Below, one piece after another: positions 33,921-48,984 of a DNA stretch of 64,000 nt (within the stretch, counting starts at the first letter, position 1; the number at the start of each line of letters is the position of its first letter). A program made the position numbers and the translations under genes. The notes under the pieces were generated by a model, which ran no database searches, was not told where the DNA came from, and worked only from the letters and a program-made list of their open reading frames with translations. Location: NCBI RefSeq assembly GCF_014191505.1, contig NZ_JACHWS010000002.1, positions 62,001 through 126,000 on the forward strand, in the 5' to 3' direction. The DNA comes from Hoyosella altamirensis. Lineage in GTDB: Bacteria; Actinomycetota; Actinomycetes; Mycobacteriales; Mycobacteriaceae.

Positions 33921-33961
33921 AACAAGAGCTGGCGAGGGGACTTGAACCCCTAACCGCCCGA
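33921..33961. repeat. attL: 41-bp att core, tRNA-Thr 3' remnant
   Basis: First of three identical 41-bp copies. It holds six bases outside the tRNA plus the tRNA-Thr 3' half (discriminator to 3' strand of the anticodon stem). Beyond base 33961 the sequence leaves the tRNA, so this is a non-functional remnant marking the left junction. Confidence 0.92.
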
Positions 33962-33993
33962 ATGACTCACAGCGCATTTCTGACTCTCAGCAG

Positions 33994-34094
33994 CCCACGT
34001 AGTTCCCTTTATTGCAGCTCAAAGCGTTGCCGAATCTCACTGTTGTGAATCACACCCACGTAATTCCCGCTATTTCACGTGGGTAAAACGTGGG
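33994..34094. repeat. Four CCCACGT/ACGTGGG motifs, possible origin or packaging site (copy 1)
   Basis: CCCACGT at 33994-34000 and 34055-34061 (direct), ACGTGGG at 34077-34083 and 34088-34094 (inverted). The two direct copies are each followed by a TTCCC phrase. The region from the att core to 34154 has no gene. Iteron-like spacing suggests a replication, packaging or integrase-arm site; this is inference. Confidence 0.4.
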
Positions 34095-34154
34095 CGATCT
34101 TGTTGCGTCAGTCGGTATTTAGGAATTCCTGATTACCGTCGAGGCGTACGGAAT

Positions 34155-34406
34155 ATGTCGACTGGTGCGCGGGCCATGTCCACGGCTCTGGTGCTCGCTG
34201 CTGACGGTCGCCGCAAAGATGGAAGGTGGCGACGAGGATCGGTAGATATTGGCGAATCCGCCAATACAGCATCTGACTGGCAGGCTCGCCTTAAGGAGTG
34301 CGGCGTGGTTATCGACCATGCCCCTGCTCTCGCCCAGGAGGTCGTTGACGGTGCAGATCGCCGCAGCGAGTACCGCACTGATCCTCGGAGAGGACCGCCG
34401 AGCTAA
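34155..34406 (+). CDS. Small protein A, paralogue of downstream protein B (copy 1)
   Basis: An 83-residue frame, ATG 34155 or 34176, containing ALVLAADGRRKDGRWRRGS and RLKECGVVIDHAPAL. Its core matches protein B: AL-[VI]-L, RR-x-x-G-[RQ]-W, C-G-[VI]-V and V-x-D-G-A appear in the same order. No family recognised. It overlaps the start of B in another frame and its tail beyond the shared core is low-complexity, so it may be a truncated duplicate. It and B are the only genes at this end transcribed rightward, away from attL and toward HNH. Confidence 0.45.
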   Translation: MSTGARAMSTALVLAADGRRKDGRWRRGSVDIGESANTASDWQARLKECGVVIDHAPALAQEVVDGADRRSEYRTDPRRGPPS

Positions 34407-34731
34407 CGGGCAGTGGGACAACAAGGGCGGCAGAGGCAACAAACGTGAGACAACTGTCTCAGGTTTAGAGGATGCAGGCGGTCGTAAAGCATTGGCCCGC
34501 TGCGGGATTGTCCTTGATGTTCTTGGTCGTGATGCTCTCCGCGCTGTGCGTGACGGAGCTACCAGCCCGAACGCTGCCTACCGGAAAGCGTGCGTGAGGA
34601 TCGCCCTCACCGCGCAACGAGAGCAACGCTCAGCCGCCAGATTCAAGCGGGGGTACCGATACCCCTCGGAGCAGACCTATCAGCACCGCCTTTGCACCAC
34701 AATTTCAGCGACCGCACAAAAAATTTCCTGA
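34351..34731 (+). CDS. Small protein B (copy 1)
   Basis: A 126-residue frame from GTG 34351, placed 9 bases after a CAGGAGG ribosome site, with ALILGEDRRANGQWDNKGG, ALARCGIVLDVLGRDALR and RKACVRIALTAQREQRSAARF. The RRANGQW phrase and basic helices suggest a DNA-binding phage accessory protein; not proven. It is convergent with the HNH gene, 56 bp apart. The frame remains open upstream to 34249 but that part overlaps gene A. Confidence 0.5.
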   Translation: MQIAAASTALILGEDRRANGQWDNKGGRGNKRETTVSGLEDAGGRKALARCGIVLDVLGRDALRAVRDGATSPNAAYRKACVRIALTAQREQRSAARFKRGYRYPSEQTYQHRLCTTISATAQKIS

Positions 34732-34787
34732 CCAGCGGCGGAGGGGTCAGTTACCCGACCCGTCAGATATTTCAGGGGAGGGGGGTG

Positions 34788-35120
34788 TCACCAGTCGAGT
34801 CGGGTCCAGAGGTGGCGGTTTCGGCTGTGGTCGTTGGTGATGTCTTCTGTGCTGGTGTTGCGTGTGCCGTCGCCTCGGCGTTCATTACAAGTTGCGTGGA
34901 GTAGCCGGTCGGCGAGGTGTCCGCCGTGGGCTCGGGCTCGTGTGTGGTCGGCGTGGAGGGCGCGCTGGTCGGGGTTGCGTGTGGGGTCGCGGTGCATGGG
35001 TTGTCCGCATTCGGTGCATGGTTCGCCGTCTTTGTGTTTCGCGAGTAGCCGTTTGCGTTGTTGCTGGTGTCGCCAGCCGAGTTTGCGTTGTGTGGTTGTG
35101 CCGCGTGGGTCGCGCGCCAT
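34788..35120 (-). CDS. HNH endonuclease (copy 1)
   Basis: A 110-residue nuclease: CTECGQPM near residue 34, ALHADHTRARAHGG and LLHATCNERRG supply the zinc-binding Cys pairs and HNH-type catalytic histidines. Small HNH proteins next to capsid or terminase genes assist DNA packaging in many siphophages, and in capsid-forming satellites. Start ATG 35120 has GAAAGGTGACAACC in front. It lies downstream of the capsid gene beyond a hairpin, so may be expressed at a lower level. Confidence 0.85.
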   Translation of the reverse strand: MARDPRGTTTQRKLGWRHQQQRKRLLAKHKDGEPCTECGQPMHRDPTRNPDQRALHADHTRARAHGGHLADRLLHATCNERRGDGTRNTSTEDITNDHSRNRHLWTRLDW

Positions 35121-35158
35121 GGTTGTCACCTTTCGGTGAGTCGGTTCCGGGGAGAGTG

Positions 35159-35201
35159 AAGCGCCCCCGCTCGGGCAATCCCATGCCGATTGGGGGCGCT
35201 T
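35159..35201. terminator. Hairpin between capsid and HNH genes (copy 1)
   Basis: A perfect 10-bp inverted repeat AAGCGCCCCC / GGGGGCGCTT with a 23-base loop lies in the spacer after the capsid stop. No T run follows on the gene strand, so it may be a partial terminator or RNA-stability element. Confidence 0.5.
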
Positions 35202-35278
35202 CTGTTTCGGTCTTGGGAGGCGGCCCGTGCTGCCCGGACAGGAACGAGCGGTTGCACGGGGAACCAAGACCAGTCTTC

Positions 35279-36157
35279 CTAGCTGTGTAGGCCAGTGAGC
35301 CTGTAGACCGTCTGTGGCTGAGTCACCGCGAACGCAGGCATCACGAAGCCTTGGACCCACTTAGATCGAATGTTCCGGTCGTCCCACATTTCTACTGTGA
35401 GTTCTTTCTCGAAGCCGACGTATCCTGCTCCGCCGCGCTGGGTGAGGTACGCGGTGCCTGCTGGTATCCAGCGTGACACTTCAAGTTTGATGCCTGACTC
35501 GGCGAGCTGCTGACCGAGTGAGATGCCGTAAGCGATCCTCAGCGCCCCTGCCTCCTGGGGGTTAACCACGAGAGTGTCAAACAACGTCCCGCTGCCTTCG
35601 TGTATCTGCGCGCGCACCACGTCGGCGAACGGCAGCCCAGCGTTAGGGGTAAGCGTCGACGGCTCCCCGACCGTTTTCGCTTGATTCCACGGTTCCGCGG
35701 CTGGGATGGTGGGCGCGTCTTCGGCGTTGAGCGCGTCGTTCAAAGCGGCAACGCCGGTCTCATTGAGTCGCCTGGCTAGGTTGTTGATGAGTTGGTTGAT
35801 CTGCAAGCTCATGGCGTCGATGCGGTTGCGGGTTACTTCTTCGTCAGCGACAGCGAATTTGCCACCGAAGTCGCGGATCGCGGCGAGGCGGGTCTGTGGG
35901 TCGGCGGCTTGGACGACGCGGTATTCGGTGGCGGGCGAGCGTTCGGCTTCACCTTCGGTGAGAAATTCGTCGCCTTTGCGCCAGATGGTGTGGTGGATCG
36001 CGCCGCCGGTGACTTGGCCGGGGTGTCGGCGATAGAACGCGTCGAGGATCGTCGTGTCGATGTTTTTGCGGATTCGGTCTTCGAGCCAGGTCGGGGACGC
36101 GAGGATGTCGCGGACCTGGATGTAGTCGTCTTCCTTGACGGGTGACAGTATGCCCAT
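35279..36157 (-). CDS. Phage major capsid protein (copy 1)
   Basis: A 292-residue protein. GILSPVKEDDYIQVRDILASPTWLEDRI at the N-terminus, TRLAAIRDFGGKFAVADEEVTRNRID in the middle, IHEGSGTLFDTLVVNPQEAGALRIAYG and GYVGFEKELTVEMWDDRNIRSKWVQGFVMPAF at the end are typical of HK97-fold major capsid proteins of actinobacterial siphophages. No scaffold or maturation protease is nearby. It follows the decoration-like gene by 12 bp. An encapsulin is less likely because of the decoration, HNH and integrase neighbours. Confidence 0.85.
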   Translation of the reverse strand: MGILSPVKEDDYIQVRDILASPTWLEDRIRKNIDTTILDAFYRRHPGQVTGGAIHHTIWRKGDEFLTEGEAERSPATEYRVVQAADPQTRLAAIRDFGGKFAVADEEVTRNRIDAMSLQINQLINNLARRLNETGVAALNDALNAEDAPTIPAAEPWNQAKTVGEPSTLTPNAGLPFADVVRAQIHEGSGTLFDTLVVNPQEAGALRIAYGISLGQQLAESGIKLEVSRWIPAGTAYLTQRGGAGYVGFEKELTVEMWDDRNIRSKWVQGFVMPAFAVTQPQTVYRLTGLHS

Positions 36158-36169
36158 GAGTTCGTCTTC

Positions 36170-36544
36170 CTATCGCAGGGAAATGTGTGCGGTGCCGTCG
36201 GCGGGAACAGTGTTGATTGCTTGCCCTGCGGGCTGGCCGGTGCCGTGGGGTGCGGCGTCCCCGGAGTTCGCCTCCACGATCTGCCCTGCGGTGATGGGCG
36301 CGGATGCTTTGACGGTGACGACGCGGCCCGCGCCGCGAGCTACGGCGACGAGCTCGCCCTCTTTTGCGTCGTGTTTGGCGACCCCGAAGACGAGCGCGCC
36401 TTCGTCAGCGACCTCGATGGTGGGTGCCCCGTCCGGGTCGGTGTCTCCGGCGATGGTGACGAATTGGCGGCGGTTAATTGCCGTGGTGGCTCGGGCGGAT
36501 AGGTCCCCGCCGGGGTTGAATACGTCAACTCCGATTAGTGGCAT
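36170..36544 (-). CDS. Head decoration-like protein (copy 1)
   Basis: A 124-residue protein from ATG 36544 (GAGGAGCACCAC in front) with VDVFNPGGDLSARATTAINRR, ALVFGVAKHDAKEGELVAVARGAGRVVTVKAS and GQIVEANSGDA. Repeating short beta strands with an A-x-x-G-V-A core match DUF2190/head-decoration proteins that sit on capsids. Its place directly before the capsid gene supports this. It overlaps the HTH gene by 20 bp. Confidence 0.75.
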   Translation of the reverse strand: MPLIGVDVFNPGGDLSARATTAINRRQFVTIAGDTDPDGAPTIEVADEGALVFGVAKHDAKEGELVAVARGAGRVVTVKASAPITAGQIVEANSGDAAPHGTGQPAGQAINTVPADGTAHISLR

Positions 36545-36947
36545 GTGGTGCTCCTCGTGCTGCTCGTTGCCTGACTTCGGTTTCATGGACGAGCCACCGT
36601 CCCCCGACCCGATATCCGGTGAGCGTGTGCCGTCTGCACAGGTCACGAACGTTGGAGGCGCCGCACCCGAGAATGTCTGCGGCTTTTGTGGTGTCGATGA
36701 GCCCGTCCGGTGTCGAGTCTTCCGGCGTGGCCAGTACATGGTCTGGTGTTCTCGCGTCCACGTGGTGTTGCGCGTAAGACGCTGCGCGCGTGAGGTACTC
36801 GCGTAGCTGTATGAACCGGCGGGGCAAGCGCGCCCCGTTTTGTGTTTCAACGAACGACTGCAAGTAAGACAAGGCCTGCACGACGCGGGCGGCGTCGTCC
36901 CACGTGATGAGGACACCGTTCACCGCGATCGGCTCATTCGAACACAC
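36525..36947 (-). CDS. HTH DNA-binding protein in structural operon (copy 1)
   Basis: A 140-residue protein, start GTG 36947. The C-terminus is a helix-turn-helix of the HTH_17/MerR-like type (LIDTTKAADILGCGASNVRDLCRRH then YRVGGRWLVHETEVRQ); the N-terminal half is helical and unknown. Placed just before decoration and capsid genes, it could regulate them or, like small terminase subunits, bind packaging DNA; both are inference. Residue 2 is Cys here and Phe in copy 2, the only difference found between the copies. Confidence 0.75.
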   Translation of the reverse strand: MCSNEPIAVNGVLITWDDAARVVQALSYLQSFVETQNGARLPRRFIQLREYLTRAASYAQHHVDARTPDHVLATPEDSTPDGLIDTTKAADILGCGASNVRDLCRRHTLTGYRVGGRWLVHETEVRQRAARGAPHATNRS

Positions 36948-37245
36948 CTGGGCCCCCTGCTCTTAGCGCCGCGATGAGCTTTTGCAGCGCTTGGACTGCG
37001 CGCGGATTGATGGCGTCTTCGGCGAGGTGTTCACCTCGTGTGCGGGCTTCCAGGAAGATGTTCTGTCGGGCGAGGCCAGCGGCCAGCTCGGCCACGCCGT
37101 ACAGCAGATCCGTGGGTGCTGTCTGATTGTCGGAAGACATAACGTCTTCGAGCATCGCGTCGACGCCCTCGGTGTCGCCGTTGACGAAGCAGGTGACGAA
37201 GGCGGCGGAGGTGGCACGTACTTCGTGAATGTTGTTCTCATTCAT
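36934..37245 (-). CDS. Hypothetical phage-type protein (copy 1)
   Basis: A 103-residue, acidic, helical protein starting at ATG 37245 (NENNIHEVRATSAAF). The start overlaps the stop of the 54-residue gene within ATGAATGA, and the end overlaps the HTH gene by 14 bp. The frame continues upstream but that part coincides with the small coupled gene. No family recognised. Confidence 0.65.
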   Translation of the reverse strand: MNENNIHEVRATSAAFVTCFVNGDTEGVDAMLEDVMSSDNQTAPTDLLYGVAELAAGLARQNIFLEARTRGEHLAEDAINPRAVQALQKLIAALRAGGPGVFE

Positions 37246-37402
37246 GGTGTTTCCTTTCGAGGTGTGCGTTGTATTCAAGCTGGATGATGAGGTGTGCTGC
37301 CTGGAGTACTGCTGCAGCGCGTAGGTCGCTGGTGGTGCAGTCGGCCAGGTTTTTGCCGACGTAGCGGCGGAGGATGTCGTCAAGGTTCGTTTCGTTGGTC
37401 AT
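37238..37402 (-). CDS. 54-residue hypothetical protein (copy 1)
   Basis: A short frame starting TNETNLDDILRRYVG and ending HLERKHHE. Its ATG overlaps the stop of the WhiB-like gene (ATGA) and its TGA lies inside the start of the next gene, so it is one link in a translationally coupled chain. Mostly helical; function unknown. Confidence 0.6.
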   Translation of the reverse strand: MTNETNLDDILRRYVGKNLADCTTSDLRAAAVLQAAHLIIQLEYNAHLERKHHE

Positions 37403-37707
37403 GCCGCACCTTCTTTCGGTGGTCGTCCTACTGTGGGCGACCGATCGGCGCTCGCCCAGATGCCGGTGCGTTCGGCGGCGGTGAGTTCACTTGCTGCTTG
37501 GTCGCACGCGGCGAGGACCGGGCAGGCGCGGCAGAGGTGTGCGCACCACTCGAAGCGCTCGATACGCGCGGCTGGGGTCTCGCCCTCAATGAAGCTGTCG
37601 AACAAAGGCGCGCGGCCAGCGCAGCGAGCACCGACCAGACGTTCATCGACGAGCGCGGCCAGCGCGGCGGACAACTTTGGTATCGACGGGGGTTTGGCGA
37701 TCTTCAT
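37399..37707 (-). CDS. WhiB-like iron-sulfur protein (copy 1)
   Basis: A 102-residue protein with four cysteines in WhiB order: one in VGARCAG, then CRACPVLAAC (C-x2-C-x5-C) after a stretch containing FEWCAHL, and a later GIWA turn in place of the usual G-[VI]-W-G. WhiB proteins hold a 4Fe-4S cluster and modulate sigma-factor activity; phage-borne forms are known in actinophages (TM4 WhiB). Here it may switch host or helper transcription. ATGA overlaps on both sides. Confidence 0.82.
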   Translation of the reverse strand: MKIAKPPSIPKLSAALAALVDERLVGARCAGRAPLFDSFIEGETPAARIERFEWCAHLCRACPVLAACDQAASELTAAERTGIWASADRSPTVGRPPKEGAA

Positions 37708-37838
37708 TTCCGCTTATCCTTGCCCTTGCGGAAGCATGTGATGCAGAGCTGGCCGCGCTGCGAGTGGGTGATGACGCCGTACCCTTTCCCGCACTCATCA
37801 CACGGTGGCGGCAGAGGTCGACTACGTGGCTTACTCAT
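37704..37838 (-). CDS. 44-residue zinc-ribbon protein (copy 1)
   Basis: A tiny basic protein, SKPRSRPLPPPCDECGKGYG at the start and LCITCFRKGKDKRK at the end. Two C-x2-C pairs about 19 residues apart would bind one zinc. Start ATG 37838 overlaps the DUF3631 stop by 8 bp, and its stop overlaps the WhiB start (ATGA). Possibly a nucleic-acid-binding adaptor. Confidence 0.6.
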   Translation of the reverse strand: MSKPRSRPLPPPCDECGKGYGVITHSQRGQLCITCFRKGKDKRK

Positions 37839-39132
37839 GACTTTGGGCTCCTTCGCGTGAGGTACCGGCATTACGTTTCCCGGCGGGTAGGTGTCCGAAG
37901 GCGTCCGAAGGGGTCAAAACACCGTTTAAGCTGCGTTTATCGTCGGACGGCTTTATTTTCTCGGACACCTTTAAGGTGTCCGACTGATTTAAGGCGTCCG
38001 ATCGTTCTGCCTGGTCAACGCCATTTAGTCGGCTTCGGACGGCTTCGGACGGGCTACCGCTGGAATTGGGCTCTTCACGCTTTGGCAAGTACCGCTCGAA
38101 CGTGTCGCTGAAGTCCGTCAACCGATACCCGCGTTCCTTCTTGTATCCGTCCCTGAATGCAGTCTTGATCCCGTACTCCTTGAGGCGATGCCCTAACTTC
38201 GACGGGTTGAGTTCAAATTGCCTCCATGGCGAGTCCTCAATTTCGTGAAGCTTCACGCACAACGCATCGGACTTCAGGAACGACACATGAAGGGACTCGA
38301 ACACGTCCTTAATGTCGCGGAGCAGCGTGACGTTCACCGAATCGCTTTCGTCTTCCTCGGCGGCTGCGACCATCGCGACGGCGGCCGCTCGGGCTCGCTT
38401 CGGCCAGTCACCGCCGGCCATATCGGCAACTGCAATCAGCGGCTCCCATACGTCGGCGGCACGGTCCTCGACACCGAGGTTTTCCGGCTCGTACCCTTCA
38501 AGCTGGTGACGCACCGTGTCAGCCCACGCAGCGATATCCTTACGCAGTCTTTCGAGGGCTGGCCGGTCCCGTCTGGTGCGGTACGGCTGGACGTGTTCGG
38601 TTGGTTTGCGGCGGCGCATCACCACCACGATTGCCCTGTCTTCAATGGTGTCTGGCATCTTGCCGATACCGGCGAGCGCGGCCATGGCGAAGGTCTCAAA
38701 CTCCACCGGTGTGTGTTGCGGTCCTACCGTGCGGCCCACTGGCAGCCCTCGTTGAAACCCCGCGTTGAGCAGGCCTCGCAGGTCTTCGTTGTTTTCGGCG
38801 ACCTTCTTCGTACCGAAGATTGTGTCAGCTTCGTCGAATAGCAGAGTTGGTGGCGGGTCCGCATCGAGTGACCGGAAGATGTACGCCACGGTCGCGTTCA
38901 CTGCCCGCAACGGCTGATACACAAGCGCGTCGAGCACCTCAAGTAGGCGTGACTTGCCGGATCTCTTCTCAGGGGATCGCGCGACCATCCTGGGCGCGTA
39001 CTCGAATGCTGCCGTTAAGTGTGTAAGCACTGCCCACAGGACTACGGCCACGAAAGCGTGATTTGACGGCAAGACGCAGTAGCGGCGTATTGATGTCTCG
39101 GTGCGGTTGAGTATTTCGGCTCCGTCGCTCAT
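37831..39132 (-). CDS. DUF3631 ATPase, putative replication protein (copy 1)
   Basis: A 433-residue protein. Walker A-like ARSPEKRSGKSRLLE near residue 57 (the DUF3631 form, lacking the first Gly) and Walker B PPTLLFDEADTIF near residue 102, followed by an AAA-like region (IEDRAIVVVMRRR) and a DUF3631 C-terminus with FELNPSKLGHRLKEYGIK, a winged-helix-like DNA contact. DUF3631 proteins are replication helicase/primase partners in actinophages and plasmids. Start ATG 39132 (SDGAEIL) shares ATGA with the upstream DnaB-N-like gene. The low-complexity tail is rich in S, D and L. Confidence 0.82.
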   Translation of the reverse strand: MSDGAEILNRTETSIRRYCVLPSNHAFVAVVLWAVLTHLTAAFEYAPRMVARSPEKRSGKSRLLEVLDALVYQPLRAVNATVAYIFRSLDADPPPTLLFDEADTIFGTKKVAENNEDLRGLLNAGFQRGLPVGRTVGPQHTPVEFETFAMAALAGIGKMPDTIEDRAIVVVMRRRKPTEHVQPYRTRRDRPALERLRKDIAAWADTVRHQLEGYEPENLGVEDRAADVWEPLIAVADMAGGDWPKRARAAAVAMVAAAEEDESDSVNVTLLRDIKDVFESLHVSFLKSDALCVKLHEIEDSPWRQFELNPSKLGHRLKEYGIKTAFRDGYKKERGYRLTDFSDTFERYLPKREEPNSSGSPSEAVRSRLNGVDQAERSDALNQSDTLKVSEKIKPSDDKRSLNGVLTPSDAFGHLPAGKRNAGTSREGAQSHE

Positions 39133-39680
39133 GCGGCCACCTCGACGAGGTTTTTGGAAGACGGGGCTATGAGTCGTTCGAACCGTGAGGCGATGCCCGC
39201 AACCTTTGTGCCGTGGTCTCGCCACACGGTGAGCCAGTCGCTCGGCGGGTGCCCAGCGATCGCGGCAGACATATCAACTGACGCGGCCCGGCGGTGCGCT
39301 TCGGCGACTACTGCAGCCGCGAGGGTACGTACGCGCTGAGGATGCGCGGTGCCGTCGCGGATTGCGTCGTCTGCGGTGACGAGATCGAGCATCAGCGCGG
39401 CGAGTTCACGGCCCCCCGGTTCGGTGAACGCTCCGCTGGTCAGGAACTGTGCGTGCAAGGTGACGAGGTCGTGGGGGTCACCACGGTCGTGGTGTTCCAG
39501 GATCGCAGCGTAGGCGCGTCCTTCGGCGGGCCGGTGAAAATCAGAGGACAAAAGCAGCTCTGCCAGATCTTCGAGGTCTCGCCCATTGGGGTAGCTGTAG
39601 CGGCCTGATGATACTGCGCACAGGCACGCGAGGAGTACCGTCCCAGCCTCCGGAATGTCGGTGCCGTCGTCTACACTCAT
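39129..39680 (-). CDS. DnaB N-terminal-like domain protein (copy 1)
   Basis: A 183-residue protein with only the N-terminal interaction domain of DnaB helicases: VLLACLCAVSSG, LAELLLSSDFHRPAEGRAYAAILEHHDRGDPHDLVTLHAQFL and GGRELAALMLDLV. There is no RecA-type helicase core. It is coupled by ATGA to the DUF3631 ATPase, so together they may form a split helicase or helicase loader. Start ATG 39680, preceded by GGAAACCACCT. Confidence 0.72.
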   Translation of the reverse strand: MSVDDGTDIPEAGTVLLACLCAVSSGRYSYPNGRDLEDLAELLLSSDFHRPAEGRAYAAILEHHDRGDPHDLVTLHAQFLTSGAFTEPGGRELAALMLDLVTADDAIRDGTAHPQRVRTLAAAVVAEAHRRAASVDMSAAIAGHPPSDWLTVWRDHGTKVAGIASRFERLIAPSSKNLVEVAA

Positions 39681-39696
39681 AGGTGGTTTCCTTTCT

Positions 39697-39727
39697 GCCC
39701 CGTCCGGCGTCGTCAACCGGGCGGGGC
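39697..39727. terminator. GC-rich hairpin upstream of DnaB-N-like gene (copy 1)
   Basis: GCCCCGTCCGG / CCGGGCGGGGC inverted repeat (one mismatch) just before the ribosome site. It could attenuate transcription or regulate translation of the replication genes. On the plus strand it is followed by a short T run. Confidence 0.4.
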
Positions 39728-39735
39728 TTTGCTTT

Positions 39736-40605
39736 TCAGTCGGGTAGCTGGAGGGTGAGTTTGTCGAGACCAGCGCGGCGCGCCGCCGTCGAAACATGGG
39801 TGTAGCGTTCGGTGGTTTGCAACGATTTGTGTCGCATGAGTTCTTGCACGACCCGCACATCAACACCTGAAGCGAGCAGTTTCGTGGCGAACCAGTGCCG
39901 GAGCGCGTGGGCGGTGGCGTCGTTAATACCAGCTCGTCGCATCGCGTCTTTCAACGCTTCACCGACGGATCGACCGTCGATGAACGCGCGCCCGTCGTTG
40001 TACGACGGGAACCAGTAGCCCGTTGTCGGCATCGAGTCACGTACCTCGTGCAGTCGAGCGTGGATCGGCATGAATGCCTGGTGGCCGCCCTTGCCGCGTA
40101 CGCGAAGCGTTCCCGCGCTCCAGTCGAAGTCCTCGCCACGCACCTTCGCGATCTCGTGGACACGCAGCCCTTGCAGCGCGGCGAGGAGGAACATCGCGAA
40201 CGTTCGGCGCCGGTTAATGACAGCTTCGATCGCGGCGACCTGTTCATCTGTGAGCCGTTTCGGTTCGCTTCGGGGGCGGCGGGGCGCATCGAGCTTCAGT
40301 AGCGGGTTGTCTTCCCGGACACCGATTTTGACGAGCCATGTTTGCCAGGTAGACAGCAGCGAAAAGTAGGTTTGTCTGCTGGTGGCGGTGATCTTCGGGT
40401 TACTGAGGGCGGCAATAATGTCGTCCTCGGTGAGCAGGTGCGCTGGCGTGCCACGGTCGTGTGCGACCCGCTCCAAGTACGTGATCCGCTCGCGTATCGT
40501 GCGCCCGGACAACGACCGGGCCTGCATATGTGCACGGAACCTGTTCAGCAAACGAACCTGCTCAAGCCATAACGAATGAACAGCGTCAGGTTGATCAGTT
40601 ATCAT
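39736..40605 (-). CDS. Second tyrosine recombinase, XerC-like (copy 1)
   Basis: A 289-residue site-specific recombinase with an N-terminal SAM-like core-binding domain (RLLNRFRAHMQARSLSGRTIRERITY) and a catalytic domain holding all residues: Arg in LQGLRVHEI, Lys in RVRGKGGHQ, H-x-x-R in AHALRHWFA, His in LMRHKSL and Tyr in TERYTHV. It is unlike the attachment-site integrase at 41955. GGAGG before ATG 40605 fixes the start. In the early operon it could resolve dimers or invert DNA; target unknown. Confidence 0.88.
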   Translation of the reverse strand: MITDQPDAVHSLWLEQVRLLNRFRAHMQARSLSGRTIRERITYLERVAHDRGTPAHLLTEDDIIAALSNPKITATSRQTYFSLLSTWQTWLVKIGVREDNPLLKLDAPRRPRSEPKRLTDEQVAAIEAVINRRRTFAMFLLAALQGLRVHEIAKVRGEDFDWSAGTLRVRGKGGHQAFMPIHARLHEVRDSMPTTGYWFPSYNDGRAFIDGRSVGEALKDAMRRAGINDATAHALRHWFATKLLASGVDVRVVQELMRHKSLQTTERYTHVSTAARRAGLDKLTLQLPD

Positions 40606-40621
40606 TGAGTCCTCCAGCCGA

Positions 40622-40690
40622 TTAACTCTCAACGGGGTTGATCTTCGATGCCTCGCCCACCACCAGGGCGGGGCATTGTTTTTCGCTCAT
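40622..40690 (-). CDS. 22-residue leader-like frame (copy 1)
   Basis: ATG 40690 overlaps the stop of the preceding gene (ATGA) and encodes SEKQCPALVVGEASKINPVES. It spans a GC hairpin (40650-40674) and ends 17 bp before the recombinase start. It may couple translation across the gap. Weak evidence. Confidence 0.25.
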   Translation of the reverse strand: MSEKQCPALVVGEASKINPVES

Positions 40691-41028
40691 GTGGTGCCTC
40701 CTAGCGTTTTCTCAGCGTTGTCGCGCGCCTCGCGGAGCTTCCCCCGGAAGTCGCGATCGGGGGCGATCGCATCAACGAACGCCAATGTGGGGTCCAGGAC
40801 GTTCCGGACCATTAGCGATAACGCAGCGGCGCACAAATAGCCGAAGTAGTCCGGGTCTGTCGTCGCGGTCCATGCTCTTGCGACGCGATCCAGTTCGGCA
40901 TCATCACCGGCAGCAGCCGCGTACTGGAAGGTCAGGATGGTGGCGTCGGATTGCAGCCGCTCCACATCAACAATGCTCGACGGTGCACCATCCTCACCGA
41001 CGATCATCATCCGGTCAGGAATATTCAC
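40687..41028 (-). CDS. Hypothetical protein (copy 1)
   Basis: A 113-residue acidic, helical protein (IVGEDGAPSSIVDVERL, ELDRVARAWTATTDPDYFGYLC, KLREARDNAEKTLGG). GTG start shares GTGA with the excisionase-like gene. No family recognised; similar small proteins follow excisionases in actinophages. Confidence 0.65.
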   Translation of the reverse strand: MNIPDRMMIVGEDGAPSSIVDVERLQSDATILTFQYAAAAGDDAELDRVARAWTATTDPDYFGYLCAAALSLMVRNVLDPTLAFVDAIAPDRDFRGKLREARDNAEKTLGGTT

Positions 41029-41225
41029 GCCGCACCACCGAGTCCGAGTACGGTGCGCAGCTCGGCGACGGGCACGGTGTAGCGGCTACCGATACGAATG
41101 ACGCGGACGGGAAAGTTACCGGCGCGGGCGTGAGCGTAGGCGGTTGATGCTGGGATACCGAGCGCCCGAGCCGCGGTACGCAGGTCGGTTGCCACTCCCA
41201 ACCTGTCGAGTTCTTCAGGGGTCAT
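41025..41225 (-). CDS. Excisionase-like HTH_17 protein (copy 1)
   Basis: A 66-residue winged-helix DNA-binding protein: DLRTAARALGIPASTAYAHAR and VRVIRIGSRYTVPVAELRTVL are the HTH_17 recognition helix and wing. First gene of the leftward operon, facing the repressor. Likely directionality factor for the integrase and perhaps a regulator. Start ATG 41225 behind GAGGAGACTTTCAC. Confidence 0.8.
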   Translation of the reverse strand: MTPEELDRLGVATDLRTAARALGIPASTAYAHARAGNFPVRVIRIGSRYTVPVAELRTVLGLGGAA

Positions 41226-41289
41226 GTGAAAGTCTCCTCGTTGTGTTCTCACAGCAGAGAATCAAGATGATTCCGTGCTGCTGACTGCA

Positions 41290-41333
41290 ATAATGGCCGC
41301 TATGTTCCCACCTGTCAAGAACATCTGTAAACT
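41290..41333. promoter_or_regulatory. Divergent promoters with palindromic operator (copy 1)
   Basis: Leftward promoter: -35 TTGACA (complement of 41313-41318), 17-base spacer, -10 CATTAT (complement of 41290-41295). Rightward: -10-like TAAACT at 41328-41333, placing transcription start at or just before the repressor ATG 41342 (leaderless). The palindrome TGTTC-N11-GAACA at 41303-41323 covers the leftward -35 and sits just upstream of the rightward -10. A TGTTC half-site recurs at 41244. Confidence 0.6.
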
Positions 41334-41341
41334 CTGCTGCC

Positions 41342-41962
41342 ATGACAGAGAACTGGTCGGCGGACATAGCCACTCGGGTGGCTTCCGAGGTAGCACGACT
41401 ACGACGAAACAAGAATCTTTCGATCGCAAAGCTCGCTAAGCGAACGGAAGAGCTCGGCAATCCAATCGGGTCTTCGGTGTTAACGAACTTCGAGTACGGA
41501 AGACGGGGCGCTCGACTAGACGTCGCCGAACTTGTGGTACTGGCGGCAGCCCTCGAAGTCCCACCTGTGCAGTTGCTCTATCCCGAGCAGCCATACGGTT
41601 ACGTCGAGTTCATTCCCGGCGAGCCGATGCCCTCGATAGAAGCAGCAGATGCGTTCAGCGGGATCGACTCACCACCCAGGGGCAAAGCGGGAAACATAGA
41701 CGCTCAGGTCATGCAGCTGGCCAGGAAGGTACGCGACCTAGACCTAACCGCACAGGCGGCTGACGAAGAGGACCTCGCAAAGGTCGTGCAAGCGTTCCAG
41801 GACACGCCAGGCGCGCCCGACATCAATATCGCCGACCTGATCGCGTCTCGTGCGCACAATGCCCGAGCTGAACGGCGCCGCCTCATTCAGCAAATCGAAG
41901 AACTGCTCGGGCGTGAAGTCGTGAGGGAAGCACCTACCCAAGGGCGTCCCCGCGATGCCTAG
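41342..41962 (+). CDS. XRE-family repressor (copy 1)
   Basis: A 206-residue regulator with an N-terminal helix-turn-helix (EVARLRRNKNLSIAKLAKRTEELG then SSVLTNFEYGRRGARLDVAELVVLAAALEV) and a longer helical C-terminus. It should keep the element quiet by binding the palindrome in its own promoter. The mRNA is probably leaderless. The end overlaps the integrase start by 8 bp, so repressor and integrase share one transcript. Confidence 0.85.
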   Translation: MTENWSADIATRVASEVARLRRNKNLSIAKLAKRTEELGNPIGSSVLTNFEYGRRGARLDVAELVVLAAALEVPPVQLLYPEQPYGYVEFIPGEPMPSIEAADAFSGIDSPPRGKAGNIDAQVMQLARKVRDLDLTAQAADEEDLAKVVQAFQDTPGAPDINIADLIASRAHNARAERRRLIQQIEELLGREVVREAPTQGRPRDA

Positions 41963-43169
41963 GTCACCGCTGCCCCTCGGCACTTACGGGAAGATCAAGC
42001 GCGCCCAGCTCGGCCCGGGCCGGTGGCGTGCACGCGCCCAGTTCCGTGATTGGGACGGAAAGACTCGGCAGGTGGAGCGGTTTGGCACCACAGGCAACAA
42101 GGCCGAGGATGCCTTGAAGGAAGCATTGCGGGACCGCCAGCGCGACACAGGCACCGTTGAAATCACCGGCGACACGCGCATCCGGGATCTCGCTACCGTG
42201 TGGTTCACGGCCATCGCGAAAGAGGATTCACGGCGGCCGCAAACGATCGCGAACTATCGGCGCACCTACGACAAGCACATAGAGCCAGCGCTAGGTGAGG
42301 TGAGGCTTTGTGAGGCGTCCGTGGGTGTGATCGAACGAGCCCTTAGCGCCATCGACAAGCATGCGACGGCGAAGCAAGCACGCGTCGTGCTGACAGCAAT
42401 GTTCGGGCTTGCGGCGAGACATGACGCGGTACCACACAACCCGGTACGGGATACGACCGCCCGCCGCAGCAAACGCGGCCAAGTTCGGGTATTCACGCCT
42501 GAAGAACTCCGTGGGTACCGGGCGCTGATCGCGGGCTGGTCACAGGGCAACCAGTACGGCCCGCCCCGCGCCGCCGATCTTCCCGACCTTGTTGACGTAA
42601 TGCTCGGAACTGGCCTACGGATCGGTGAGGTCCTCGGCCTGGTGTGGCCCGCAGTCGAACTCGATGCCGAACCACCGCGGCTGACAGTCGCAGGACAAGT
42701 GATCGCATACGGCGGCAGGGCGACCCGAGAGGCCTACCTGAAGTCGGAAGCAGGTCACCGCACCCTCACACTCCCCTACTTCGCCGCAGAAGCGCTACAG
42801 CGCCAGCACGAACGCAACCTCCCCAGCGAAGGCGGGCTCGTGTTCCCGTCCCACCGTGGCACTCCCCGCTCACCGCACAATGTGCGCCGCCAGCTCCGCG
42901 CAGCACGCGGTGACCAATTCGAATGGGTGACACCGCACACGTTCCGCAAGACAACAGCAACCCTCATCGAACGGGACTTCGGAGTAGGCGCAGCCACCGC
43001 ACAGCTCGGCCACTCAGGCGAGCGAGTCACTCGCGAGCACTACATACAGCGGGCGGCAGTCGCGCCAGACGTGCGGCGAGCGTTCGAACCGTTGTTGATT
43101 GAAAAACGTGGGTTAAACAGTGTTGATCTTGAACCAACGAAAACGAGGCCAGACCTAAAAGCGGTCTGA
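41955..43169 (+). CDS. int: Tyrosine integrase (copy 1)
   Basis: A 404-residue phage-type integrase with an arm-binding N-terminus (GRWRARAQFRDWDGKTRQVERFG), core-binding domain (RRPQTIANYRRTYDKHIEPAL) and catalytic residues: Arg in GTGLRIGEVLGL, Lys in EAYLKSEAGHRTL, H-x-x-R in TPHTFRKTTATL, His in QLGHSGERV and Tyr in REHYIQ. It ends 8 bp before the att core, the usual position for tRNA-targeting integrases. Confidence 0.95.
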   Translation: MPRSPLPLGTYGKIKRAQLGPGRWRARAQFRDWDGKTRQVERFGTTGNKAEDALKEALRDRQRDTGTVEITGDTRIRDLATVWFTAIAKEDSRRPQTIANYRRTYDKHIEPALGEVRLCEASVGVIERALSAIDKHATAKQARVVLTAMFGLAARHDAVPHNPVRDTTARRSKRGQVRVFTPEELRGYRALIAGWSQGNQYGPPRAADLPDLVDVMLGTGLRIGEVLGLVWPAVELDAEPPRLTVAGQVIAYGGRATREAYLKSEAGHRTLTLPYFAAEALQRQHERNLPSEGGLVFPSHRGTPRSPHNVRRQLRAARGDQFEWVTPHTFRKTTATLIERDFGVGAATAQLGHSGERVTREHYIQRAAVAPDVRRAFEPLLIEKRGLNSVDLEPTKTRPDLKAV

Positions 43170-43174
43170 CCTCG
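43144..43174. terminator. Hairpin at integrase end (internal junction)
   Basis: Inverted repeat CGAGGCCAGACC / GGTCTGACCTCG (one mismatch) overlaps the last integrase codons. Read on the minus strand it is followed by TTTTCG, giving a T-rich tail. Confidence 0.6.
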
Positions 43175-43177
43175 AAA

Positions 43178-43218
43178 AACAAGAGCTGGCGAGGGGACTT
43201 GAACCCCTAACCGCCCGA
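43178..43218. repeat. Internal 41-bp att core between the two copies
   Basis: Second identical core, exactly 9,257 bp from the first. Left flank is the integrase end, right flank is the element left end, as expected for an attP-like junction made by tandem insertion. Confidence 0.92.
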
Positions 43219-43250
43219 ATGACTCACAGCGCATTTCTGACTCTCAGCAG

Positions 43251-43351
43251 CCCACGTAGTTCCCTTTATTGCAGCTCAAAGCGTTGCCGAATCTCACTGT
43301 TGTGAATCACACCCACGTAATTCCCGCTATTTCACGTGGGTAAAACGTGGG
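43251..43351. repeat. Four CCCACGT/ACGTGGG motifs (copy 2)
   Basis: Same iteron-like arrangement as in copy 1, beginning 33 bp inside the internal att core. Confidence 0.4.
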
Positions 43352-43411
43352 CGATCTTGTTGCGTCAGTCGGTATTTAGGAATTCCTGATTACCGTCGAG
43401 GCGTACGGAAT

Positions 43412-43663
43412 ATGTCGACTGGTGCGCGGGCCATGTCCACGGCTCTGGTGCTCGCTGCTGACGGTCGCCGCAAAGATGGAAGGTGGCGACGAGGATCGGT
43501 AGATATTGGCGAATCCGCCAATACAGCATCTGACTGGCAGGCTCGCCTTAAGGAGTGCGGCGTGGTTATCGACCATGCCCCTGCTCTCGCCCAGGAGGTC
43601 GTTGACGGTGCAGATCGCCGCAGCGAGTACCGCACTGATCCTCGGAGAGGACCGCCGAGCTAA
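43412..43663 (+). CDS. Small protein A (copy 2)
   Basis: Identical to the 83-residue frame of copy 1; possible truncated paralogue of protein B, which it overlaps. Confidence 0.45.
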   Translation: MSTGARAMSTALVLAADGRRKDGRWRRGSVDIGESANTASDWQARLKECGVVIDHAPALAQEVVDGADRRSEYRTDPRRGPPS

Positions 43664-43988
43664 CGGGCAGTGGGACAACAAGGGCGGCAGAGGCAACAAA
43701 CGTGAGACAACTGTCTCAGGTTTAGAGGATGCAGGCGGTCGTAAAGCATTGGCCCGCTGCGGGATTGTCCTTGATGTTCTTGGTCGTGATGCTCTCCGCG
43801 CTGTGCGTGACGGAGCTACCAGCCCGAACGCTGCCTACCGGAAAGCGTGCGTGAGGATCGCCCTCACCGCGCAACGAGAGCAACGCTCAGCCGCCAGATT
43901 CAAGCGGGGGTACCGATACCCCTCGGAGCAGACCTATCAGCACCGCCTTTGCACCACAATTTCAGCGACCGCACAAAAAATTTCCTGA
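43608..43988 (+). CDS. Small protein B (copy 2)
   Basis: Identical to copy 1: 126 residues, GTG start behind CAGGAGG, RRANGQW core and basic C-terminal helices; function unknown. Confidence 0.5.
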   Translation: MQIAAASTALILGEDRRANGQWDNKGGRGNKRETTVSGLEDAGGRKALARCGIVLDVLGRDALRAVRDGATSPNAAYRKACVRIALTAQREQRSAARFKRGYRYPSEQTYQHRLCTTISATAQKIS

Positions 43989-44044
43989 CCAGCGGCGGAG
44001 GGGTCAGTTACCCGACCCGTCAGATATTTCAGGGGAGGGGGGTG

Positions 44045-44377
44045 TCACCAGTCGAGTCGGGTCCAGAGGTGGCGGTTTCGGCTGTGGTCGTTGGTGATGT
44101 CTTCTGTGCTGGTGTTGCGTGTGCCGTCGCCTCGGCGTTCATTACAAGTTGCGTGGAGTAGCCGGTCGGCGAGGTGTCCGCCGTGGGCTCGGGCTCGTGT
44201 GTGGTCGGCGTGGAGGGCGCGCTGGTCGGGGTTGCGTGTGGGGTCGCGGTGCATGGGTTGTCCGCATTCGGTGCATGGTTCGCCGTCTTTGTGTTTCGCG
44301 AGTAGCCGTTTGCGTTGTTGCTGGTGTCGCCAGCCGAGTTTGCGTTGTGTGGTTGTGCCGCGTGGGTCGCGCGCCAT
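44045..44377 (-). CDS. HNH endonuclease (copy 2)
   Basis: Identical to copy 1, with CTECGQPM, HADH and CNERRG motifs; probable packaging nuclease downstream of the capsid gene. Confidence 0.85.
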   Translation of the reverse strand: MARDPRGTTTQRKLGWRHQQQRKRLLAKHKDGEPCTECGQPMHRDPTRNPDQRALHADHTRARAHGGHLADRLLHATCNERRGDGTRNTSTEDITNDHSRNRHLWTRLDW

Positions 44378-44415
44378 GGTTGTCACCTTTCGGTGAGTCG
44401 GTTCCGGGGAGAGTG

Positions 44416-44458
44416 AAGCGCCCCCGCTCGGGCAATCCCATGCCGATTGGGGGCGCTT
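44416..44458. terminator. Hairpin between capsid and HNH genes (copy 2)
   Basis: Same 10-bp inverted repeat as in copy 1. Confidence 0.5.
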
Positions 44459-44535
44459 CTGTTTCGGTCTTGGGAGGCGGCCCGTGCTGCCCGGACAGGA
44501 ACGAGCGGTTGCACGGGGAACCAAGACCAGTCTTC

Positions 44536-45414
44536 CTAGCTGTGTAGGCCAGTGAGCCTGTAGACCGTCTGTGGCTGAGTCACCGCGAACGCAGGCATCA
44601 CGAAGCCTTGGACCCACTTAGATCGAATGTTCCGGTCGTCCCACATTTCTACTGTGAGTTCTTTCTCGAAGCCGACGTATCCTGCTCCGCCGCGCTGGGT
44701 GAGGTACGCGGTGCCTGCTGGTATCCAGCGTGACACTTCAAGTTTGATGCCTGACTCGGCGAGCTGCTGACCGAGTGAGATGCCGTAAGCGATCCTCAGC
44801 GCCCCTGCCTCCTGGGGGTTAACCACGAGAGTGTCAAACAACGTCCCGCTGCCTTCGTGTATCTGCGCGCGCACCACGTCGGCGAACGGCAGCCCAGCGT
44901 TAGGGGTAAGCGTCGACGGCTCCCCGACCGTTTTCGCTTGATTCCACGGTTCCGCGGCTGGGATGGTGGGCGCGTCTTCGGCGTTGAGCGCGTCGTTCAA
45001 AGCGGCAACGCCGGTCTCATTGAGTCGCCTGGCTAGGTTGTTGATGAGTTGGTTGATCTGCAAGCTCATGGCGTCGATGCGGTTGCGGGTTACTTCTTCG
45101 TCAGCGACAGCGAATTTGCCACCGAAGTCGCGGATCGCGGCGAGGCGGGTCTGTGGGTCGGCGGCTTGGACGACGCGGTATTCGGTGGCGGGCGAGCGTT
45201 CGGCTTCACCTTCGGTGAGAAATTCGTCGCCTTTGCGCCAGATGGTGTGGTGGATCGCGCCGCCGGTGACTTGGCCGGGGTGTCGGCGATAGAACGCGTC
45301 GAGGATCGTCGTGTCGATGTTTTTGCGGATTCGGTCTTCGAGCCAGGTCGGGGACGCGAGGATGTCGCGGACCTGGATGTAGTCGTCTTCCTTGACGGGT
45401 GACAGTATGCCCAT
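44536..45414 (-). CDS. Phage major capsid protein (copy 2)
   Basis: Identical 292-residue HK97-fold-type capsid protein. Two copies would double the gene dose unless one is silent. Confidence 0.85.
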   Translation of the reverse strand: MGILSPVKEDDYIQVRDILASPTWLEDRIRKNIDTTILDAFYRRHPGQVTGGAIHHTIWRKGDEFLTEGEAERSPATEYRVVQAADPQTRLAAIRDFGGKFAVADEEVTRNRIDAMSLQINQLINNLARRLNETGVAALNDALNAEDAPTIPAAEPWNQAKTVGEPSTLTPNAGLPFADVVRAQIHEGSGTLFDTLVVNPQEAGALRIAYGISLGQQLAESGIKLEVSRWIPAGTAYLTQRGGAGYVGFEKELTVEMWDDRNIRSKWVQGFVMPAFAVTQPQTVYRLTGLHS

Positions 45415-45426
45415 GAGTTCGTCTTC

Positions 45427-45801
45427 CTATCGCAGGGAAATGTGTGCGGTGCCGTCGGCGGGAACAGTGTTGATTGCTTGCCCTGCGGGCTGGCCGGTGC
45501 CGTGGGGTGCGGCGTCCCCGGAGTTCGCCTCCACGATCTGCCCTGCGGTGATGGGCGCGGATGCTTTGACGGTGACGACGCGGCCCGCGCCGCGAGCTAC
45601 GGCGACGAGCTCGCCCTCTTTTGCGTCGTGTTTGGCGACCCCGAAGACGAGCGCGCCTTCGTCAGCGACCTCGATGGTGGGTGCCCCGTCCGGGTCGGTG
45701 TCTCCGGCGATGGTGACGAATTGGCGGCGGTTAATTGCCGTGGTGGCTCGGGCGGATAGGTCCCCGCCGGGGTTGAATACGTCAACTCCGATTAGTGGCA
45801 T
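45427..45801 (-). CDS. Head decoration-like protein (copy 2)
   Basis: Identical 124-residue decoration-like protein, 12 bp before the capsid gene. Confidence 0.75.
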   Translation of the reverse strand: MPLIGVDVFNPGGDLSARATTAINRRQFVTIAGDTDPDGAPTIEVADEGALVFGVAKHDAKEGELVAVARGAGRVVTVKASAPITAGQIVEANSGDAAPHGTGQPAGQAINTVPADGTAHISLR

Positions 45802-46204
45802 GTGGTGCTCCTCGTGCTGCTCGTTGCCTGACTTCGGTTTCATGGACGAGCCACCGTCCCCCGACCCGATATCCGGTGAGCGTGTGCCGTCTGCACAGGT
45901 CACGAACGTTGGAGGCGCCGCACCCGAGAATGTCTGCGGCTTTTGTGGTGTCGATGAGCCCGTCCGGTGTCGAGTCTTCCGGCGTGGCCAGTACATGGTC
46001 TGGTGTTCTCGCGTCCACGTGGTGTTGCGCGTAAGACGCTGCGCGCGTGAGGTACTCGCGTAGCTGTATGAACCGGCGGGGCAAGCGCGCCCCGTTTTGT
46101 GTTTCAACGAACGACTGCAAGTAAGACAAGGCCTGCACGACGCGGGCGGCGTCGTCCCACGTGATGAGGACACCGTTCACCGCGATCGGCTCATTCGAAA
46201 ACAC
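45782..46204 (-). CDS. HTH DNA-binding protein (copy 2, Phe2)
   Basis: Same 140-residue protein as copy 1 except residue 2, Phe instead of Cys, from the single base change at 46200. The change lies directly after the GTG start and outside the HTH domain, so little functional effect is expected beyond translation initiation. Confidence 0.75.
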   Translation of the reverse strand: MFSNEPIAVNGVLITWDDAARVVQALSYLQSFVETQNGARLPRRFIQLREYLTRAASYAQHHVDARTPDHVLATPEDSTPDGLIDTTKAADILGCGASNVRDLCRRHTLTGYRVGGRWLVHETEVRQRAARGAPHATNRS

Positions 46205-46502
46205 CTGGGCCCCCTGCTCTTAGCGCCGCGATGAGCTTTTGCAGCGCTTGGACTGCGCGCGGATTGATGGCGTCTTCGGCGAGGTGTTCACCTCGTGTGC
46301 GGGCTTCCAGGAAGATGTTCTGTCGGGCGAGGCCAGCGGCCAGCTCGGCCACGCCGTACAGCAGATCCGTGGGTGCTGTCTGATTGTCGGAAGACATAAC
46401 GTCTTCGAGCATCGCGTCGACGCCCTCGGTGTCGCCGTTGACGAAGCAGGTGACGAAGGCGGCGGAGGTGGCACGTACTTCGTGAATGTTGTTCTCATTC
46501 AT
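46191..46502 (-). CDS. Hypothetical phage-type protein (copy 2)
   Basis: Identical 103-residue acidic helical protein, coupled to the 54-residue gene upstream. Confidence 0.65.
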   Translation of the reverse strand: MNENNIHEVRATSAAFVTCFVNGDTEGVDAMLEDVMSSDNQTAPTDLLYGVAELAAGLARQNIFLEARTRGEHLAEDAINPRAVQALQKLIAALRAGGPGVFE

Positions 46503-46659
46503 GGTGTTTCCTTTCGAGGTGTGCGTTGTATTCAAGCTGGATGATGAGGTGTGCTGCCTGGAGTACTGCTGCAGCGCGTAGGTCGCTGGTGGTGCAGTCG
46601 GCCAGGTTTTTGCCGACGTAGCGGCGGAGGATGTCGTCAAGGTTCGTTTCGTTGGTCAT
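46495..46659 (-). CDS. 54-residue hypothetical protein (copy 2)
   Basis: Identical small coupled frame between the WhiB-like gene and the 103-residue gene. Confidence 0.6.
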   Translation of the reverse strand: MTNETNLDDILRRYVGKNLADCTTSDLRAAAVLQAAHLIIQLEYNAHLERKHHE

Positions 46660-46964
46660 GCCGCACCTTCTTTCGGTGGTCGTCCTACTGTGGGCGACCG
46701 ATCGGCGCTCGCCCAGATGCCGGTGCGTTCGGCGGCGGTGAGTTCACTTGCTGCTTGGTCGCACGCGGCGAGGACCGGGCAGGCGCGGCAGAGGTGTGCG
46801 CACCACTCGAAGCGCTCGATACGCGCGGCTGGGGTCTCGCCCTCAATGAAGCTGTCGAACAAAGGCGCGCGGCCAGCGCAGCGAGCACCGACCAGACGTT
46901 CATCGACGAGCGCGGCCAGCGCGGCGGACAACTTTGGTATCGACGGGGGTTTGGCGATCTTCAT
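46656..46964 (-). CDS. WhiB-like iron-sulfur protein (copy 2)
   Basis: Identical four-cysteine WhiB-like protein (CRACPVLAAC). Confidence 0.82.
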   Translation of the reverse strand: MKIAKPPSIPKLSAALAALVDERLVGARCAGRAPLFDSFIEGETPAARIERFEWCAHLCRACPVLAACDQAASELTAAERTGIWASADRSPTVGRPPKEGAA

Positions 46965-47095
46965 TTCCGCTTATCCTTGCCCTTGCGGAAGCATGTGATG
47001 CAGAGCTGGCCGCGCTGCGAGTGGGTGATGACGCCGTACCCTTTCCCGCACTCATCACACGGTGGCGGCAGAGGTCGACTACGTGGCTTACTCAT
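46961..47095 (-). CDS. 44-residue zinc-ribbon protein (copy 2)
   Basis: Identical small protein with CDEC and CITC pairs. Confidence 0.6.
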   Translation of the reverse strand: MSKPRSRPLPPPCDECGKGYGVITHSQRGQLCITCFRKGKDKRK

Positions 47096-48937: not shown

Positions 48938-48953
48938 AGGTGGTTTCCTTTCT

Positions 48954-48984
48954 GCCCCGTCCGGCGTCGTCAACCGGGCGGGGC
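48954..48984. terminator. GC-rich hairpin upstream of DnaB-N-like gene (copy 2)
   Basis: Same inverted repeat as at 39697-39727. Confidence 0.4.

Follow-up and report, generated by a model that had tools for sequence, protein, structure and literature searches.

A candidate phage satellite with its own capsid gene, integrated twice in tandem in Hoyosella altamirensis, and its relatives

A 64,000-nucleotide stretch of the Hoyosella altamirensis genome (contig NZ_JACHWS010000002.1, positions 62,001 to 126,000 of the forward strand; hereafter the window) carries an integrated element of about 9.3 kb that encodes a major capsid protein and no recognised portal, terminase, or protease. In our judgement, this element is probably a phage satellite akin to the phage-inducible chromosomal islands (PICIs), one that would make a small shell of its own and borrow portal, terminase, and tail from a helper phage. 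The case is built on the boundaries of the element, on the identity of its capsid protein, and on a set of relatives in the same GTDB family.

Boundaries and integration

The unit extends from position 33921 to position 43177 and is a complete integrated element of 9,257 bp including one attachment (att) core, the repeat starting at 33921 with a period of 9,257 bp. An initial annotation of this DNA had given exactly these limits, while remaining silent on a second copy (43178–52434) that abuts the first and matches it throughout 9,257 bp except for a single base (position 36943, C/A). A 41-bp core, which includes the 3′ end of a tRNA-Thr(tgt) gene, starts at all three junctions—33921–33961 on the left, 43178–43218 at the middle junction, and 52435–52475 on the right, as placed by comparison of the repeats—and the right core overlaps the 3′ end of the called tRNA gene itself (52440–52513, minus strand), the target of integration. 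A 40-bp att string occurs three times in the 64-kb window as compared to zero expected occurrences. In another genome of the genus (G050), attB is empty: flanks 92% (left) and 93% (right) identical meet at a single 39-bp core, tRNA-Thr is intact, and the left core of the window matches this attB. The att cores, the near-identical adjoining copies, and the empty attB together argue that the element is mobile and is, by these marks, integrated twice in tandem at the 3′ end of tRNA-Thr(tgt). Duplication during assembly was provisionally set aside, judging from the assembled sequence, since the copies differ by one base and sit inside a 1.12-Mb contig. A plasmid origin was also set aside, with zero DNA matches in 72,556 plasmid records and no capsid match there either.

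Capsid protein and absent virion genes

On the evidence of family profiles and a predicted structure, the 292-aa protein encoded at 35279–36157 (minus strand; 44536–45414, minus strand, in the second copy, from the list of open reading frames (ORFs) and a capsid match) is a major capsid protein of the HK97 fold, as the initial annotation had proposed. It matches the NCBIfam capsid equivalog NF042926 (E 6e-71; 239 bits, the cut-off being 120), scores above the cut-off of PF25209, and matches phrog_1650; among phage records, 49 matches were obtained, all below 60% identity and, for the 40 matches listed, at 25–34%. The AlphaFold2 model has a mean predicted local distance difference test score (pLDDT) of 84, and the structure search run with it in Foldseek returned encapsulins as the top matches, together with HK97, at a probability of 1.00 and template modelling (TM) scores of about 0.5–0.6. 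A sequence search of the PDB with the capsid alignment gave zero matches at E 0.1. Pfam places the neighbouring 124-aa protein (36170–36544, minus strand) in Phage_cement_2 (PF09956), above the family cut-off. In PHROG, its strongest match is phrog_673, a family labelled ‘head scaffolding protein’, and the equivalent proteins of phages bear the annotation scaffolding (Schnabeltier, PrincessTrina) or minor capsid protein (prophi91-1); the 124-aa protein may be a scaffold rather than a decoration protein.

Profiles for portal, large terminase subunit (TerL), small terminase subunit (TerS), connectors, scaffold, and tail genes gave zero matches in the unit at E 0.05, the negatives for TerS and connectors being weaker because these families are diverse. 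The same profiles matched 19 portal and 11 TerL ORFs in 19 phage loci, which had also supplied profiles, and found no portal or TerL in 20 att-delimited relatives. The phage protease, searched for with a profile of each of its two halves, had zero matches in the unit at E 0.5, and no protease emerged from Pfam and PHROG scans of ten unit genes. The earlier statement that the element lacks terminase, portal, and protease is borne out by these searches, and so is the remark that nothing else in it is structural; the decoration-like label that came with that remark is the part opened to revision by the PHROG match of the 124-aa protein. Of the two findings named in that annotation as fatal to its reading, a 292-aa protein without the HK97 fold and terminase or portal homologues among the hypothetical genes, neither emerged from the fold comparison or the portal and TerL profiles.

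Gene content

The element is organised around a divergent repressor/integrase switch and possesses replication-type genes of its own. A repressor-like helix-turn-helix (HTH) protein (41342–41962; homologues in relatives) and a tyrosine integrase (41955–43169; Pfam, PHROG) lie on the plus strand. Leftward, on the minus strand, there follow a 75-aa excisionase-like HTH protein (41025–41252; recognised by eye, with homologues in relatives), a 113-aa protein without a family match in PHROG, a second, XerC/D-like tyrosine recombinase (39736–40632; Pfam, NCBIfam), a DnaB N-domain-like replication protein (39129–39866; Pfam, NCBIfam), a DUF3631 protein that is probably a replication helicase (37831–39225; Pfam), a 55-aa ORF, a WhiB-like regulator (37399–37707; Pfam, PHROG), a 54-aa ORF, a 103-aa protein without family (36934–37245; scanned by Pfam and PHROG as a 149-aa ORF, best PHROG at E 0.076), an HTH17 protein (36525–36947), the 124-aa protein, the capsid protein, and an HNH endonuclease (34788–35123), WhiB, HTH17, cement, capsid, and HNH genes all having the same direction. 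The integrase, replication proteins, and HNH nuclease of the initial annotation are supported by Pfam and PHROG; as for its repressor, an HTH protein is present and its match is weak (phrog_3, E 2e-4).

HTH17, identified from Pfam, a structural model, and relatives, joins an N-terminal helical hairpin to an excisionase-like winged HTH and is a hallmark of the satellites described below. It was considered as a candidate TerS and rejected: the model shows the hairpin with a BldC/Xis-like winged HTH, without a PDB match at E 0.001, and HTH17 is counted as part of the backbone since siblings that bear a TerS have HTH17 as well. The start of the HNH gene was picked by eye; scanned as a longer ORF (34788–35360), it matches phrog_1808 at E 8e-32 and stays below the Pfam cut-off, and its short form has no NCBIfam match. 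A further match of this ORF, to phrog_4581 (labelled terminase small subunit; E 1e-14), covers only positions 295–388 of 395 and is read here as an HNH part. The XerC/D-like recombinase sits in the replication operon and perhaps resolves multimers of the replicating satellite. Between HNH and attL, the plus strand has ORFs in two frames whose pattern looks repeated (34155–34731; no PHROG match); they possibly represent a broken or frameshifted gene.

Capsid-bearing relatives

The capsid was searched for in 401 genomes of the GTDB family, with matches at E 1e-10 in 42 of them, this genome included, and 40 capsid-homologue regions (two in this genome), a part of all matching places, were examined. 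Gene calls in the relatives are homology-based ORFs, several loci are cut by contig ends, and the set was gathered by capsid homology, so that the presence of a capsid in it is by construction. The 40 regions comprise 29 compact elements without recognised portal or TerL, nine phages or phage fragments with a portal (L035, L060-62, L065, L066, L068, L071, and L073), and two capsid fragments (L034 and L067). Among named genomes, a first scan for the capsid yielded no relatives; an alignment of closer relatives then found some. Relatives reside in Gordonia aichiensis, G. otitidis, Williamsia muralis, Rhodococcus sp. KRD162, and Tsukamurella spumae, other named matches being mostly Mycobacterium, and the host of the window belongs to the same GTDB family as the loci matching the Gordonia, Williamsia, Rhodococcus, and Tsukamurella records. 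The gene-order search that the initial annotation had suggested thus returned relatives of similar order across this family.

Sizes were surveyed in 56 loci, among them phages and cut contigs, by looking for a tRNA 3′ end that occurs more than once; 23 were positive, and three duplicate records were dropped. The 20 measured relatives (17 of the 29 plus L171, L172, and L178 from named genomes) sit at various tRNA genes, have a median length of 10,051 bp, and, with the exception of L172 (12,613 bp), span 9,071–10,678 bp, whereas two related phages measure 46.9 and 49.8 kb; for L046 and L053, which have three repeats, the pair enclosing integrase and capsid was taken. Another tandem pair may exist on a viral contig (L116:1-231 and 9815-10894), where a fragment of the scaffold domain precedes the capsid gene by roughly the length of one element.

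In a table of 123 loci that includes viral contigs, reference phages, and the window, HTH17 occurs in 28 genome loci, ten viral contigs, and the window, none of which has a portal or TerL; conversely, none of the loci flagged for portal or TerL contains HTH17 or WhiB. By a count made by eye, 31 of the 34 HTH17 matches at E 1e-20 or better adjoin a capsid match; two of the remaining three loci (L218 and L219) run off the contig end within the protease gene, and L217 is without capsid. HTH17 was also sought beside PF05065 capsids, which 11 of 26 genomes have; the sole HTH17 match within 20 kb was partial and, by eye, about 15 kb away (G365), and this association was rejected.

Of the 29 relatives, 24 have a cement-type protein together with the capsid. 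In Schnabeltier-like phages, a single protein with the annotation head maturation protease comes ahead of the 124-aa-type protein and the capsid. In 16 of the 29 satellites, the N-terminal protease part and the C-terminal Mu-like_Pro-type domain reside instead on separate ORFs flanking the capsid gene, and two further satellites (L057 and L059) have a ClpP-type version, which brings protease-bearing loci to 18 of 29. The lack of a protease noted by the initial annotation holds for the window unit and is not the norm among these relatives. Among the other 11, L051 is cut by a contig end, six have, immediately behind the capsid gene, a short part of the C-terminal domain (L036, L040, L048, L049, L050, and L054; proteins of about 60–120 aa by eye), and four show neither (L047, L053, L058, and L056, which ends 0.3 kb past the capsid). 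In the profile search, the window unit likewise has neither protease nor C-terminal-domain piece; its capsid, like that of four of 28 assessable relatives, is accompanied neither by a recognised protease nor by a scaffold piece derived from one. The position that the C-terminal domain occupies in Mu-like proteases suggests that it may act as a scaffold.

The capsid tree, a quick maximum-likelihood reconstruction, includes 89 capsids; from an original 123 rows, 34 that came from viral contigs and were regarded as near-copies of phages had been removed beforehand. Across the 39 satellite rows, one change between phage and satellite is required without eight unclassified rows and two when those eight are counted; the node uniting the satellite capsids has a Shimodaira–Hasegawa-like approximate likelihood ratio test (SH-aLRT) value of 80, and of 95 in a 37-row subset. 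In this tree, the satellite capsids form one lineage beside those of Schnabeltier and of Mycobacterium abscessus prophages. The window capsid falls in a seven-row group (SH-aLRT 95), no N-terminal protease being found in its members; its placement is provisional because the branches of the window row (1.13) and of two others in this group are long and the tree carries long-branch warnings. Ratios of nonsynonymous to synonymous substitution (dN/dS) of 0.12–0.31 in the ten of 45 capsid pairs listed, none of them with the window and one (L127/L133) not a satellite pair, point to purifying selection on the capsid in relatives.

Capsid-less siblings

The host genome contains a third element (C3:602258-611791; in locus L216, whose positions 6759-16343 correspond to C3:602258-611842), 9,533 bp in length and located at tRNA-Met, which has WhiB, HTH17-like, repressor-like, and DUF3987 genes and an integrase gene recognised by eye. 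This sibling has no capsid; a 268-aa protein without family, of a type common to L216, L230, and L232, occupies the capsid slot. A selection of 22 HTH17 loci without a capsid match, mostly with weaker HTH17 matches, was examined (L216, L217, and L222-L241). Five of these contain a tape-measure gene coding for 960–1,903 aa (tape-measure PHROGs, E 5e-86 or better; L222:10775-13657, L231:4267-9654, L234:11858-16429, L236:9615-15326, and L238:2928-6620), together with WhiB in three of the five, and no other tail gene was matched in them by the profiles used. A TerS was found in six of the 22; the profile used had been derived from five of these six, and PHROG confirmed those five. This sibling TerS profile gave zero matches in 21 capsid-bearing elements; another TerS profile matches one of them, L172. 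Tape-measure-like genes also occur in capsid-bearing satellites (L080:6415-10077, L084:4998-9143, and L168:11850-15512): the protein of L168, from Mycobacterium gordonae, matches phrog_1942 at E 1e-261, and that of L084 has a transglycosylase domain.

The pattern of this slot suggests that a helper virion can be captured in more than one way. As a tentative extension that we would put at somewhat less than an even chance, these elements could constitute a large satellite superfamily of the Mycobacteriales in which a common backbone (integrase, repressor, replication, WhiB, and HTH17) is combined with an exchangeable slot for virion parts after HTH17, filled by an own shell, by a tape measure as tail ruler, by shell plus tape measure, or by a protein of about 270 aa, with or without TerS. 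Such satellites would replace only the components that govern virion dimensions or packaging choice; all others would be borrowed.

Comparison with known satellites

Classical PICIs and the Staphylococcus aureus pathogenicity islands (SaPIs) lack a capsid gene and redirect packaging by a TerS of their own or by similar means, and capsid hijackers such as P4 and the SaPIs remodel the helper shell. The window element differs from the classical type in that it has a capsid gene and that no TerS was found. By the published definition (PMC10690885), capsid-forming PICIs (cf-PICIs) possess a protease, a portal, connectors, and the two terminase subunits, in line with the earlier remark that they carry more of the head and packaging set; with them, the window shares an own major capsid protein and an HNH endonuclease, whereas three of five features (head maturation protease, portal/head–tail connectors, and large/small terminase) were not found. 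According to the descriptions available, the Streptomyces satellites MulchRoom and MiniFlayer are, like the window element, actinobacterial with a capsid gene of their own; unlike it, they encode terminase subunits as well as a portal, a scaffold, and an adaptor. Schnabeltier-type siphoviruses and M. abscessus prophages have the closest phage capsids and the same pair of 124-aa-type and capsid genes, yet they are full phages, as the two genome lengths given above illustrate. The elements phiRv1 and phiRv2 of M. tuberculosis presumably carry capsid and protease genes, the capsid being of a family that we take to be other than the window's.

Closest in conception are candidate PICIs consisting of ‘integrase plus major capsid protein’ that have been published for Mycobacterium, in a paper that also calls phiRv1 and phiRv2 PICI-like (PMC10654092). 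The present element is therefore a new variant of capsid-encoding PICI-like satellites and not a new class, and the ‘undescribed satellite class’ of the initial annotation has to be given up. Like the window element, those candidates are integrated, some of them at tRNA genes with a tyrosine integrase, and have a capsid gene; some carry replication, terminase, or scaffold genes. The accessible text of that paper contains no rule of portal or TerL absence, no split protease–scaffold, no WhiB–HTH17 hallmark, no size limit, and no relatives beyond its Mycobacteriaceae sample. The sizes of phiRv1 and phiRv2 are 9.3 and 10.8 kb (PMC3986857), and small prophage elements in actinobacteria at large are suspected satellites in what is available of a further source (PMC10023795). 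Among open-access titles and abstract beginnings, none was found on shell satellites lacking portal and terminase with a split protease–scaffold, nor on satellites with a tape measure as the only tail gene.

Proposed mechanism and alternatives

In the satellite pathway as we picture it, a phage entering the cell or induced in it would lift repression, and the satellite would excise and replicate. Satellite capsid and cement protein would then assemble around a helper portal into a shell sized for about 9–11 kb, which helper terminase, perhaps with the satellite HNH nuclease, would fill, and helper tails would complete the particle. In most relatives, satellite protease and detached scaffold-type domain may serve shell assembly; the protease-less branch of the window might rely on a helper scaffold, on its own 124-aa protein as scaffold, or on none. 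The narrow length range of 9–11 kb predicts a shell much smaller than that of the related 47–50 kb phages, of triangulation number T=3 to T=4 if scaled by volume.

Several observations weigh against this pathway. The satellite capsid, which shares only about 33% identity with those of phages, would need to be compatible with the helper portal. No packaging site shared with phages was recognised, and the DNA comparison of the unit with 18 phage loci gave three short matches in all, of which two fall in the HNH gene and the third in that of the 103-aa protein. A TerL of the related phage type was not found in the host genome, in a search that had no positive control, and the capsid of the 17-kb host contig C8 (L035), which carries portal, protease, capsid, tape-measure, and tail genes and, by eye, lysins, is distant from that of the window (32% identity over part); no resident helper can accordingly be named from the host sequence. 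The long branch of the window capsid within a protease-less branch could also mean decay. On C8, an HNH-like ORF was seen by eye between portal and protease, and no terminase was found; whether C8 might be a second small satellite was considered and rejected, for there is no overlap between its ends, and its genes include portal, tape measure, and tail together with the lysins seen by eye. On contig C1 of the same genome lies a decayed relative (L034:7576-10157) that retains parts of an integrase and, interrupted by an internal stop, a capsid fragment with 56% identity to the window capsid.

The capsid might alternatively be a tool of interference that co-assembles with helper capsid and shrinks or poisons helper heads, the satellite riding in mixed or helper-made shells. 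A capsid without protease or scaffold piece, as in the window and four of 28 relatives including L056, is a thin kit for an independent shell, and the tape-measure and TerS genes of capsid-less siblings make the slot look like a place for helper-manipulating parts. Co-assembly should, however, need similarity that an identity of about 33% hardly offers, and most relatives keep a cement-type protein or a protease with their capsid; we regard this explanation as unlikely, if worth keeping in mind. Considerably less probable is a decaying prophage in which a few structural genes were kept by chance. The missing protease and the stop-containing capsid fragment on C1 would fit it, but the two copies are near-identical, with intact frames and clean att sites, 20 relatives are similar in size, their capsids form one lineage apparently under purifying selection, and HTH17 and WhiB were found in no portal- or TerL-bearing locus. 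Least credible of all is a plasmid-like integrative element whose shell protein forms an encapsulin-like compartment rather than a DNA-filled head: encapsulins are the top structural matches, a portal is lacking, and there are two tyrosine recombinases next to own replication-type genes, whereas the capsid family is a phage capsid equivalog, its gene lies beside that of a phage cement-type protein, and relatives keep a phage maturation protease and scaffold-type domain.

A satellite with its own shell and borrowed portal, terminase, and tail, as favoured here, raises the question whether a capsid lineage foreign to the helper, supplied with only a cement- or scaffold-type protein, can build on a helper portal and be filled by a helper terminase, and also what sets the size of the shell. 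The relatives offer a natural series—protease with scaffold-type domain, a short scaffold-type piece only, or neither—by which the construction of a satellite shell on a helper portal becomes a testable question.

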